A DNA stretch of 23,921 nucleotides from a virus: positions 1 through 23,921 of IMG/VR virus record IMGVR_UViG_3300050821_011038; one strand, given 5' to 3'. The notes beneath the pieces are model-generated. The model searched no databases and was not told where the DNA came from. It worked only from the letters and a program-made list of their open reading frames with translations. Shown here piece by piece: positions 15,884 through 20,831 of the stretch (its first letter is position 1; every line of letters begins with the position of its first letter). A program made the translations under genes and the position numbers.

Positions 15884-16177
15884 TCAGCCCTCGATCGCCA
15901 GCAAATTATTAATTTGGCTCTGGATGTCGGTAACTTTTGCCTGGAATTCAGCCGAGATGCGTCGTTTCTCTTCCTGCAGTTCTTTGAGTTTTAAGTCTTT
16001 TGGATCAAGTTCCTGAATTTCAAATGTAATTGTGGTTTCGTTGACGACTTCTGCCCCTTGATAGGTCGGATATGGCCAGACAAAGTAATCTACAGATGGG
16101 ACGCAATCGCGTTTTTCTGCATCCCATCGGGCGACGGCTTTAGCCATCAGATAGACCGGCAATTCAATTGTCTTCAT
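15884..16177 (-). CDS. Hypothetical protein with C-terminal coiled coil (97 aa)
   Basis: The N-terminal part (MKTIELPVYLMAKAVARWDA) is followed by an aromatic segment (VDYFVWPYPTYQG). Residues ~55-95 form a charged heptad-like helix (DPKDLKLKELQEEKRRISAE) ending INNLLAIEG. Oligomerisation through this helix is likely. The start is preceded by the GAGGCTCAA leader, and the stop meets the nuclease start as TGATATG. Function unknown. Confidence 0.7.
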   Translation of the reverse strand: MKTIELPVYLMAKAVARWDAEKRDCVPSVDYFVWPYPTYQGAEVVNETTITFEIQELDPKDLKLKELQEEKRRISAEFQAKVTDIQSQINNLLAIEG

Positions 16178-16204
16178 TTTGAGCCTCTGTAGTGGTACTA
16201 CGGT

Positions 16205-16714
16205 TTAGTTGCTTCCGAGCAGCTTTTGCAATCCATCTACAGCCGGACCTTCGAGCCCTGACAGAATCTGCGCGCGGAACGAACGACGGAGATTTGCCTT
16301 ATAGGCTTCCTGTACGAGTCGTTCGATTTCTTTGTTTCGGTCTGCATTAGCCATGTAATCGGAGAAGTCCAGCTTCTGCACGACCCATCGAAGGGCGTAA
16401 TTCGCTCCCGGCTCGACAACTACCTCTTCATCCACGTCGATGACTGTAGCTGCCTTCAGTTGATTTGCCGCTTCTACCAATACGATATCGAATGGCTTCA
16501 CGTCCAAATGTGTGACGTAGGAGTAGAGTTTAAAATCCGTCTCCCCTGTGTTACGAACCCCTAGGCTCTCCAGCAAGTCCATTGCCGGTGCGCGTTGTTC
16601 TTCATCCAATTTCATCCCATCGATTGATGAGTTCTCGCGGATCAGTGAAAAAGCCACTTTGATCGTCTTTGCATCTTCACGCAGGAGTGCTGCGATATTC
16701 CTTTCGGTTGCCAT
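16205..16714 (-). CDS. Hypothetical phage protein (169 aa)
   Basis: The N-terminus (MATERNIAALLREDAKTIKV) leads into a beta-rich middle (LDVKPFDIVLVEAANQLKAA, then VIDVDEEVVVEPGANYALRW) that resembles a small SH3-like barrel. A charged helix follows (ADRNKEIERLVQEAYKANLR). The C-terminus is VDGLQKLLGSN, similar to the shared LLxELG-type tail. GAGGCTCAA precedes the ATG. Proteins of this shape occur in other phages, without a known role. Confidence 0.7.
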   Translation of the reverse strand: MATERNIAALLREDAKTIKVAFSLIRENSSIDGMKLDEEQRAPAMDLLESLGVRNTGETDFKLYSYVTHLDVKPFDIVLVEAANQLKAATVIDVDEEVVVEPGANYALRWVVQKLDFSDYMANADRNKEIERLVQEAYKANLRRSFRAQILSGLEGPAVDGLQKLLGSN

Positions 16715-16743
16715 TTGAGCCTCTTAAATAAGTGGTACTACGG

Positions 16744-17216: not shown

Positions 17217-18533
17217 TCACGCAAGATATAATTTCTTTTGTGCTCGACTGCAGGCAACATAGAGGCAAGAAAAGGCTTCTTTCCTATTACGATTGTATAA
17301 GGTATCTTGAAAATCTACGAATACATTCCGATAGGTACTGCCCTGGGAACGATGCGCTGTAATCGCGTAGGCGAATCTGATGTCATGGAATAGGTCTTTC
17401 AGGTCCCAGAATCTACGCCATAGCTTCGGATTCGCGTGGGCTTCGTGCGCGAGGATTTGGCAATCATTTTCATGCTGCTGCTTACTAGCTGGGTGGATTA
17501 CTAATAGCCGGATTACCTGATTTTCTTCCGTGCGGCACTTGAGTTCCAGTGCGTGATACTTCGGTTCCAGTGGGTGTTTGCACTCAATTACCCCCTCTAC
17601 GATTGCCTCGTCATCTGTGTGAAGTAGTAATTCATCATTCCGCTCACAAGGTCCAGCTGCCACAACCCGATCCCCAACCAAGAAAAATCCTGGTTGAGCC
17701 TCTGCGCCGAAGATAGCTGCTCGGGCAATCTGGTTGTATTCATCGACTTTGATGTTCCGCCAGCTGATAACTTTTGTCGTGCGACCATCCGCGAATTCCC
17801 CCCGAGATGCCGCAGCAAAGATCTGCTTTCGGAAGTCGATCTTAGAGAGCTTCCACACCCCTTCCTGCCCGTTGTTGTCACTTTTGATCGTGACGCACGG
17901 CGATGGGGAGAAAATAACCTGGCGGATGTCGGAAACCAGCGAAAGGATTTGATTGTCATGTCGCATTACTCGGGTGAGTTGCACGCCCAATTCGCCCTGA
18001 AGGGCCAGACTCTCCGACTCCTTCACCGGAGGTAGCTGCGCCGGATCGCCCATGAAAACAATCTTCAGGTTGAACTTGTCAGCGATATCCCCGAGCAACC
18101 CGAACAAATGCGCATTCACCATCGAGGCTTCATCTACGACAATGACATCCAGATCGGATAGGTCGACAGGTTTACCATGGGCGATTTGCTTGGTTTCTCC
18201 GTTCTTGTCTACTCGTAATCCGAGGAGCGAATAGATAGTGCAGGCTTCGCCCACGATCTCCCGTAAGACTTTTGCTGCCTTGTTCGTTGGAGCAGTGTAA
18301 GCAAATCGAGCATGAGACTTCCCAACTCTGCGGACGACCTCTCGCATGCAGGATGTTTTTCCTGTCCCAGCGTATCCTCGGAAGCAGAAATACCAGTCGA
18401 AGACTTGGGGACTGGAGATGAAGCTGAGGAGTTCTTCGATTGCCTGTAGCTGGTCCGGGATAAATTCGAAGGGCGCTTCGACTTGGTAGAGGGACGAGTC
18501 CGCCCCGGTTTCTTGAATTTCTTCATGATTCAT
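17217..18533 (-). CDS. SF1B DNA helicase, Dda/RecD-like
   Basis: The 438-residue protein has ordered superfamily 1 motifs: Q-like FIPDQLQAI (24-32), motif I GYAGTGKT (53-60), Ia TAPTNKAAKVL, II VVDEAS (132-137), III GDPAQLPPV (162-170), V AITAHRSQGS (about 390-399) and VI LYVACSRAQKKLYL (C-terminus). These, with the length, fit phage T4 Dda and the helicase part of RecD2: 5'-3' DNA unwinding driven by ATP. It should help replication start, fork progress or recombination with the polymerase and Sak4 ATPase. The leader is a variant AAGGCTCACCC of the common GAGGCTCA site. No N-terminal primase or zinc domain. Confidence 0.92.
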   Translation of the reverse strand: MNHEEIQETGADSSLYQVEAPFEFIPDQLQAIEELLSFISSPQVFDWYFCFRGYAGTGKTSCMREVVRRVGKSHARFAYTAPTNKAAKVLREIVGEACTIYSLLGLRVDKNGETKQIAHGKPVDLSDLDVIVVDEASMVNAHLFGLLGDIADKFNLKIVFMGDPAQLPPVKESESLALQGELGVQLTRVMRHDNQILSLVSDIRQVIFSPSPCVTIKSDNNGQEGVWKLSKIDFRKQIFAAASRGEFADGRTTKVISWRNIKVDEYNQIARAAIFGAEAQPGFFLVGDRVVAAGPCERNDELLLHTDDEAIVEGVIECKHPLEPKYHALELKCRTEENQVIRLLVIHPASKQQHENDCQILAHEAHANPKLWRRFWDLKDLFHDIRFAYAITAHRSQGSTYRNVFVDFQDTLYNRNRKEAFSCLYVACSRAQKKLYLA

Positions 18534-18573
18534 GGGTGAGCCTTCAATTGACTGTGTCAGCTTGCTGACGTAA

Positions 18574-19909: not shown

Positions 19910-20365
19910 TTACTCCTTAATAGAAACAGGGATATCAGCCCAGCCTTGCTGCGGGTAGCAACTCGGGCACATAGTAACAGGCTGTGGACGAATTTCAACC
20001 TCACGCGGTAGTCGTGAGAGTTCGAAGTTATCCTTCGGAGCTACGTAGTTGAAGCATCGGAGTCGGAGTTGCTCTTTCTTGATGAAGACCCCTTCGACGC
20101 GTTGATGCTCAGAATGGCAGGTTGAGCAGACCTGAGAATGGATGAGAAGCACCACACAGAGGTCTTTCCAGCCTTCCGCACGATCTTTGATTTTTTTGAC
20201 ATCGGCGTAGTGGGCTTCGACTTCCGGCCCGGTCATCCAGCCAGCTGTCTTTGGGAGAATGGCTCCTTTTTTGGAAGCTTTCTGAGCTTGCTTTTGTTCG
20301 CGTTCTTTCTTAAGGATATCGAGAGATTCCCCTAAGAGGTCATCTAGTTCTATGTCGATTGTCAT
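19910..20365 (-). CDS. Putative zinc-binding protein, first gene of the regulator operon (151 aa)
   Basis: The start at 20365 (MTIDIELDDLLGESLDILKK) follows the GAGGCTCAA leader; the frame extends upstream only through promoter DNA. A charged helical N-terminus is followed by GAILPKTAGWMTGPEVEAHY. CSTC at 80-83 and CPSC at 133-136 form a split zinc site. The N-terminal IELDDLLGESLD has some likeness to the shared LLxELG peptide. Being first in the operon with RHH, XRE and DUF4406 genes suggests an early role. Function unknown. Confidence 0.7.
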   Translation of the reverse strand: MTIDIELDDLLGESLDILKKEREQKQAQKASKKGAILPKTAGWMTGPEVEAHYADVKKIKDRAEGWKDLCVVLLIHSQVCSTCHSEHQRVEGVFIKKEQLRLRCFNYVAPKDNFELSRLPREVEIRPQPVTMCPSCYPQQGWADIPVSIKE

Positions 20366-20396
20366 TTGAGCCTCACTGTTGGTTGACCGACAACTA

Positions 20397-20425
20397 ATTA
20401 TGAGTTTTCCACACGGAAAACGCAA
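20397..20425 (-). promoter_or_regulatory. Candidate promoter with embedded operator for the regulator operon
   Basis: - strand -35 TTGCGT (20420-20425), 17-base spacer and -10 CATAAT (20397-20402). The spacer is almost filled by an inverted repeat GTTTTCC-GTGT-GGAAAAC (20404-20421). A dimeric repressor bound there would block polymerase. The -35 is weak. The operon downstream codes for XRE and RHH regulators. Confidence 0.55.
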
Positions 20426-20448
20426 CTCAGAGATTTATTTGAGTTTTC

Positions 20449-20477
20449 AACGGGGATTACTAATTGTTAATCCCGGT
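20449..20477 (-). repeat. Oriented intergenic element, early sub-type, copy F
   Basis: - strand ACCGGGATTAACAATTAG, then TAATCCCCGTTG. It lies between the terminator of the structured RNA and the promoter at 20397-20425. Right arm CCCCG pairs with left CGGGG, so the copy is close to palindromic. Confidence 0.85.
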
Positions 20478-20484
20478 TAGAAAT

Positions 20485-20520
20485 GGAAAACGCCCCTGAC
20501 TCGGGGGAGAAAGGGGCGTT
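20485..20520 (-). terminator. Intrinsic terminator candidate ending the structured RNA
   Basis: Stem AACGCCCCT/AGGGGCGTT (9 bp; 20489-20497 with 20512-20520) with a 14-base loop. On the - strand it runs into TTTTCC. The T-tract is short, so efficiency is uncertain. Confidence 0.65.
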
Positions 20521-20524
20521 GGGA

Positions 20525-20780
20525 GCAGTAAGGCACAACCAGGGAGGCTCAGACCGTGGTCTATTACTGCAGAATGCTTTGCAAATACCCTTATCGCGGG
20601 GTGGTAGATCGGCCACCACAGCCTCATTACCTGTTCGGCTGGTTAGTTCCGAACCCCCTGGATAAGGGTACTTAGGGGGAGGCAGAGTAACCTAAGTCTC
20701 GTCTGCCTCCCGGCTCCCCTCCTTTTATCAGCTAGGGGCCGCTGCCTCCGCTTTCGCGGATCTTAAAGCGGGGTACTTGA
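20525..20780 (-). ncRNA. Candidate structured non-coding RNA downstream of the 199-aa gene
   Basis: About 310 bases without a gene are dense in perfect helices. TACCCTTATC/GATAAGGGTA (10 bp, 20586-20595 with 20661-20670) encloses three hairpins: GGTGG/CCACC (20600-20617), CAGCC/GGCTG (20619-20641) and GGTT/AACC (20641-20655). Outside lie GGGAGGCAGA/TCTGCCTCCC (10 bp, 20677-20686 with 20702-20711), GCAGTAA/TTACTGC (20525-20570) and TCCGC-GAAA-GCGGA (- strand, 20747-20760). The GAAA tetraloop and the following terminator favour the - strand. The multibranch part recalls a cloverleaf but the middle loop is 13 bases, so it is not a standard tRNA. A long 3' UTR is the alternative. Confidence 0.55.
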
Positions 20781-20831
20781 CTCGACACTACTAGGCCAAT
20801 TGACTTTTCGCTTCCTCGTTCCCCCTGACTC

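Follow-up and report, generated by a model that had tools for sequence, protein, structure and literature searches.

Most phage antisense RNAs described so far act on a single gene. In bacteria, S. aureus RNAIII and Listeria LhrC carry C-rich UCCC loops that serve as anti-Shine-Dalgarno seeds and block several mRNAs, and we know of no case among these RNAs in which the target set switches with the loop between close relatives. The c4 RNA of phages P1 and P7 has loops complementary to the region of the ribosome-binding site (RBS) and blocks translation of a phage gene; its specificity differs between related phages, which is heteroimmunity (PMC12197685). The sar RNA of P22 and the OOP RNA of lambda are small phage antisense RNAs that exert post-transcriptional control on phage mRNAs, and VpdS and PreS are trans-acting phage small RNAs (sRNAs) (PMC12197685). 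Bacterial sRNAs derived from 3' untranslated regions (3'UTRs) are also known (reviewed in PMC9438474).

The present study deals with an RNA locus in a 23,921-nt stretch of viral DNA (the window). The RNA is very probably a switch that controls a group of the virus's genes, since one of its hairpin loops complements the RBSs of these genes and since loop and RBSs have changed together in relatives.

Locus and Strand

The RNA lies in a 466-nt gap (20366-20831) between genes 20832-21431 (199 aa) and 19910-20365 (151 aa) of a dense minus-strand operon, which bears out the gene-free stretch in a packed operon described in an earlier note on this DNA. The minus-strand fold is 4.5 standard deviations below dinucleotide shuffles (z -4.5), with none of 100 shuffles as stable. 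Because the plus-strand fold is nearly as good (z -4.2), strand and function were taken from homologues and not from fold energy; this comparison confirms the structured RNA and assigns it to the minus strand. The homologues (L008/L013, L009/L051, L010/L052, L011/L053, L031/L046 (five identical contigs), L042/L054, and L055) were found in viral contigs, which were searched by neighbouring genes and by pattern. Pattern-scan matches in genome contigs were discarded as chance, the partner strand being missing, as was L037, by inspection a chance match in coding DNA. A direct DNA search of phage records with the locus found nothing.

No covariance model of Rfam 15, which includes curated phage antisense RNAs, matched the window locus at the gathering threshold, and nothing of note appeared even at E<=10. 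Together with strong compensatory changes in the homologues, whose lack the earlier note had itself named as a refutation, this upholds its proposal of a structured RNA without earlier description. Its alternative of a tRNA or tRNA-like RNA (cloverleaf, T-loop, anticodon model) was rejected, as ARAGORN found no tRNA gene anywhere in the window and Rfam at E<=10 listed no tRNA in 20350-20850. Among seven relatives, Rfam gave a single match, to an unrelated tRNA. ARAGORN placed tRNA genes (Asn, Ile) at L013 4221-4295 and L042 11229-11302, beside or inside the RNA locus, with the 199-aa gene on one side and the 3' hairpin on the other.

Architecture of the RNA

In the homologues the RNA falls into three modules. 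The 5' module is a pseudoknot, the middle domain is exchangeable and the 3' module is a hairpin, behind which comes a stem-loop resembling a terminator:

20747-20760, minus strand: GAAA-tetraloop hairpin UCCGC-GAAA-GCGGA (L008 counterpart CCCC-GCAA-GGGG)
20716-20744, minus strand: 5' module, H-type pseudoknot CAGC-GG-CCCCU-A-GCUG-AUAAAAGG-AGGGG, from covariation
20677-20711, minus strand: 10-bp hairpin of the middle region, 10/10 bp at 20677-20686/20702-20711
20586-20670, minus strand: middle domain, 10-bp helix (20586-20595/20661-20670) closing a two-arm junction
20525-20570, minus strand: 3' module, hairpin with 11-nt loop GUCUGAGCCUC presenting the anti-RBS seed, from covariation
20544-20551, minus strand: seed UGAGCCUC, invariant in class A homologues, complement of six RBSs
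20485-20520, minus strand: terminator-like stem-loop AACGCCCC...GGGGCGUUUUCC

The two 10-bp helices, the 7-bp helix and the GAAA-loop hairpin that had been named earlier were all present in a structure check of the window. Across seven homologues, stem 1 of the pseudoknot covaries (CG/GC/UA), as does stem 2 (CCCCU, CCCGU, and GCCGU with AGGGG, ACGGG, and ACGGC), while the single-stranded segments GG, UA, and AAAAGG do not vary. The earlier reading of three arms of 4, 5, and 5 bp gives way to a two-arm junction, which the homologues back and whose arm loops pair together: UAAUCA/UGAUUA in L013, UAGUCA/UGACUA in L052 and ACCA/UGGU in the window. In the window and four relatives, 28 of 30 cells of this pairing are paired (slid controls 1 to 14), and two positions have two-sided change. 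The middle domain is replaced in L031/L046, L054, and L055. Loop 20691-20697 of the middle hairpin is able to pair with 20670-20676; the pairing is striking in the window, otherwise occurs only in L008/L013 and was rejected as a general feature. The 3' hairpin, with its 7-bp helix (20525-20531/20564-20570), has two-sided changes at 8 of 13 pairs, and 97% of cells are paired vs 30–46% when slid; the loop seed UGAGCCUC is unchanged across the homologues while the stem pairs covary. As for the terminator of the earlier note, the stem-loop at 20489-20520 resembles one, but its T tract is short and weak and it does not pass a strict terminator scan. Since the pseudoknot and middle domain are missing from most relatives, they are regarded as accessory, probably with a role in stability or processing.

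The Adjacent Gene and the Transcript

21506-21534, minus strand: predicted promoter TTGACA-17-TATAGT for the transcript spanning 199-aa gene and RNA (11/12 consensus matches)
20832-21431, minus strand: 199-aa gene, always directly upstream of the RNA

This promoter-like site was the only one listed in a promoter scan of 20300-21560, and an identical sequence stands upstream of the 199-aa orthologue in L031. As no site lies nearer, the RNA is suggested to be the 3' untranslated part of the 199-aa gene transcript, so that its level would follow that gene. The RNA may be a 3'UTR-derived sRNA: it lies downstream of a coding sequence, the sole promoter-like site is 5' of the 199-aa gene, and the stem-loop at its end resembles a terminator but has the weak T tract.

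The 199-aa protein has no Pfam or PHROG match. A fold search with its predicted structure (mean pLDDT 80.5) gave no PDB match at E<=0.001, and among viral proteins four matches below E 0.001, all without names. Neighbouring genes have no Pfam match above cut-off and weak or no PHROG matches, for which PHROG gives no function. The 199-aa and 241-aa (23142-23867) proteins are paralogues (30% identity, E 2e-11); the former is encoded upstream of the RNA, and the latter is among the putative targets of the RNA in many phages.

A further promoter-like sequence, TTGCGT-17-CATAAT (20397-20425, minus strand), was read from the sequence before the 151-aa gene and is absent from the promoter-scan list. 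Both the terminator-like stem and a copy of a palindromic element lie upstream of it, and L010 and L031 have similar sequences. The palindromic element (core ATTACTAATTAGTAAT flanked by CCGGG/CCCGG) has about eight dispersed copies, mostly intergenic, occurs in relatives too and may be an operator or other shared phage signal:

560-601, 4928-4970, 7029-7071, 10200-10245, 13059-13103, 17170-17214, 20441-20485, and 22508-22552: copies of the palindromic element

Complementarity of the Loop to Ribosome-Binding Sites

The earlier note saw the structure but missed its most informative feature, the anti-RBS loop. The loop seed UGAGCCUC is the exact complement of GAGGCUCA, and GAGGCTCA/GAGGCUCA occurs in eight copies in the window vs 0.79 expected by chance; one copy complements the hairpin loop, one lies inside the helicase gene and six stand before starts. 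Six of the seven minus-strand copies are 2–5 nt upstream of open reading frame starts (69-241 aa; start sites in these RBS counts are automated calls), where GAGG forms a Shine-Dalgarno core at proper spacing for genes of 69, 87, 97, 151, 169, and 241 aa. The motif is found upstream of genes on the minus strand only, with none at the plus-strand operon of the window. The predicted target sites are:

20367-20374, minus strand: RBS GAGGCUCA of the 151-aa gene (19910-20365), which has two CxxC motifs; predicted duplex -17.1 kcal/mol
16180-16187, minus strand: RBS of the 97-aa gene 15884-16177, from octamer and duplex prediction
16716-16723, minus strand: RBS of the 169-aa gene 16205-16714, from octamer and duplex prediction
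22501-22508, minus strand: RBS of the 87-aa gene 22236-22499, from octamer and duplex prediction
22768-22775, minus strand: RBS of the 69-aa gene 22556-22765, from octamer and duplex prediction
23871-23878, minus strand: RBS of the 241-aa gene 23142-23867 (paralogous to the 199-aa gene), from octamer and duplex prediction
18537-18543, minus strand: probable seventh target, AGGCUCA (7/8), Dda-like helicase gene 17217-18533

The helicase is the exception among targets mostly without assigned function, and the AGGCUCA heptamer also precedes the helicase in L013, L046, L052, L053, and L054. Predicted loop-RBS duplexes range from -14.8 to -19.0 kcal/mol for the six targets and reach -11.7 kcal/mol at the helicase site. 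Only three of the other 23 minus-strand leaders are at -10 kcal/mol or below, and the energies set the six targets apart from all remaining minus-strand leaders. The CUCA extension of the octamer is not part of the 16S complement and is explained by the loop. Pairing between loop and RBS is strongly supported by these comparisons.

Joint Change of Loop and Target in Relatives

Ninety-six distinct viral contigs carrying the 199-aa gene were gathered through the 199-aa family. They contain at least 10 hairpin-loop classes, for example UGAGUCUC, UUAGUCUCC, and UUGCCUCC; the hairpin with its anti-RBS loop is often <100 nt from the 199-aa stop codon, the phage's own RBSs carry the complement, and in several phages the loop-bearing hairpin is itself terminator-like. 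The class B loop UGAGUCUC would pair with a GAGACUCA leader. Examples of loop and RBS pairs in the contigs, with one or two contigs in each of classes F to O, are:

Loop UGAGUCUCC, RBS GGAGACUCA: L066, L067, L071, L083, L086
Loop UUAGUCUCC, RBS GGAGACUA: MW202489.1 (L044), L091, L092; L093 has CUAGUCUCC
Loop GCGAGUCC, RBS GGACUCGC: L076, L161
Loop UUGCCUCC, RBS GGAGGCAA: L081, L097
Loop GUAGCCUCC, RBS GGAGGCUAC: L107
Loop AUGGCUCC, RBS GGAGCCAU: L113, L128
Loop UUGUCUCCC, RBS GGGAGACAA: L151, L153
Loop UGGGUCUCC, RBS GGAGACCCA: L148
Loop UUAGACUCC, RBS GGAGUCUAA: L144
Loop GCGCCUCC, RBS GGAGGCGC: L134, L140

A matrix of loop classes against RBS motifs, with labels assigned by inspection after looking, is strongly diagonal. 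In phages with the UGAGCCUC loop, 53 of 60 GAGGCTCA copies are at RBSs, as against 0 of 13 in the 47 contigs (755 kb) without an assigned loop class. Within their own groups, the RBS counts are 11/11 for GGAGACTCA, 7/7 for GGAGACTA, 7/8 for GGAGGCAA, 3/3 each for GGAGGCTAC and GGAGCCAT, 6/6 for GGGAGACAA and 4/4 each for GGAGACCCA and GGAGGCGC, and these motifs are rare elsewhere. Two permutation tests are independent of the labels. When contigs were swapped, using 9-mers in hairpins <=150 nt from the stop codon, own loops matched 80 genes vs 25.5 +/- 5.3 for swapped loops (z 10.2, maximum 50 in 5000 permutations); the null takes in same-class swaps, which makes the test conservative, and the contigs are related, hence not independent. 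Two target families, the 151-aa family and the 199-aa paralogue, carry RBSs that follow the loop through six and nine classes; in orthologue-level swaps the observed mean was never reached in 5000 permutations (z about 5–6). Contigs fetched later repeat the pattern in six of about 14 cases (L161, L162, L183, L188, L202, and L205). Comparison among the phages establishes the hairpin, its complementarity to the targets, their Shine-Dalgarno position and the joint change of loop and target.

No clear matching hairpin was seen in 47 of the 96 contigs, perhaps because some are partial and others lack the system or use other hairpins. By inspection, the related Microcystis phage Mel-JY34 has no matching loop, and GAGGCTCA was not found in 20 kb of MW202489 or of Mel-JY34, both of which have related 199-aa and polymerase genes. 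The public complete phage record MW202489.1 (20000-40250) carries the system, unannotated, with loop UUAGUCUCC and GGAGACUA leaders.

Proposed Mechanism and Alternatives

The favoured reading, held with considerable confidence, is a phage antisense regulatory RNA that would keep a group of the phage's own early-operon genes from being translated. The RNA would form the 3' untranslated end of the 199-aa transcript, from which it may be cut free; its 11-nt loop with UGAGCCUC would pair with GAGGCUCA, an extended Shine-Dalgarno sequence 2–5 nt before the starts of at least six (probably seven) genes, all in the same operon region on the minus strand. Occupation of these RBSs would repress translation of the set jointly as the 199-aa transcript accumulates. 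The seed is complementary to several mRNAs and kept by compensatory change, as in trans-acting sRNAs. Short intermolecular pairing of loop and Shine-Dalgarno sequence is the sole explanation found for complementary sequences that may vary as long as they vary jointly, within a stem kept by compensation. Pairing alone leaves the sign of regulation unset; repression is suggested by its position over the Shine-Dalgarno sequence, where it is established for c4, sar, and C-rich-loop sRNAs. We infer transcription of the RNA, its action in trans, repression as opposed to activation, and its timing.

An improbable alternative is a switch acting in cis only, in which the RNA and the next gene (151 aa) would share a polycistronic transcript and the loop would fold back on the RBS of that gene. 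The 151-aa gene is indeed among the two most constant targets across classes and lies 200–700 nt downstream of the 199-aa stop codon in many relatives. In the window, however, a terminator-like stem and a promoter-like sequence stand between the RNA and this gene, and five more genes, to about 4.7 kb downstream and 3 kb upstream, have the complement, as do eight genes in L061. It is more doubtful still that GAGGCTCA and its class variants are operators or translational-repressor sites, the hairpin copy being autoregulatory. Repeated phage octamers can be operators, and the adjacent 199-aa protein has no assigned function, but the hairpin carries the complement of the RBS and not the same RNA sequence, the target copies are at Shine-Dalgarno spacing before start codons, the loop-presenting stem is kept through compensatory changes, and the sequences vary freely among phages yet remain complementary to the loop. 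A general anti-Shine-Dalgarno decoy for host mRNAs or a 16S rRNA mimic, matching phage RBSs only incidentally, draws on the CCUCC that class A loops have in common with the 16S rRNA 3' end and is the least credible, because complementarity runs four bases beyond the Shine-Dalgarno core into a CUCA that 16S rRNA leaves unexplained and that varies with the loop between phages, because loops UGAGUCUCC and GCGAGUCC lack CCUCC, and because relatives without the loop do not use the motif.

If the antisense reading is true, the phage would have an RNA regulon whose targets follow from a one-line rule, a Shine-Dalgarno octamer that needs nothing but the sequence to be read, and its relatives would supply matched loop-target pairs as a natural series with joint change. 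This would account for an otherwise unexplained RBS motif and predict targets in unannotated genomes; swapping loops and leaders makes the evolution of RNA specificity testable, and the pairs would be ready-made orthogonal translation switches. Tentatively, the gene programme of this phage group might be run in part by a private, fast-diversifying loop-RBS code. The codes of related phages would be mutually incompatible, so that the RNA would also be a factor of specific immunity against co-infecting phages with the same code.

Comparison with Known Systems

A full-text search of a literature library with few subscription journals found no earlier description of the system. As in c4, the loop is complementary to RBSs of phage genes, but c4 acts on the ant mRNA, whereas here at least six genes have a common site, at least 10 loop classes co-vary with their targets, and the 199-aa neighbour is without known counterpart. 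Neither homology to c4 (no Rfam match) nor an ant-type antirepressor neighbour (no Pfam match above cut-off) was found. The described targets of sar and OOP are single phage genes, whereas the short pairing proposed here is repeated at many loci. RNAIII and LhrC likewise have hairpin loops with C-rich anti-Shine-Dalgarno seeds; they are bacterial RNAs with bacterial targets, in contrast to a phage's own genes. Like 3'UTR-derived sRNAs, the RNA would be the last part of a coding transcript, and it closes at a terminator-like stem-loop; it differs from these and from VpdS and PreS in that its targets would be the phage's own genes with one common RBS octamer. Overall, the proposed mechanism is closest to c4 and the C-rich-loop sRNAs, without membership of a described family by the tests applied here. 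Antisense RNA acting at the RBS is already known, and the new part is the multi-gene regulon with loop classes that change together with their targets.
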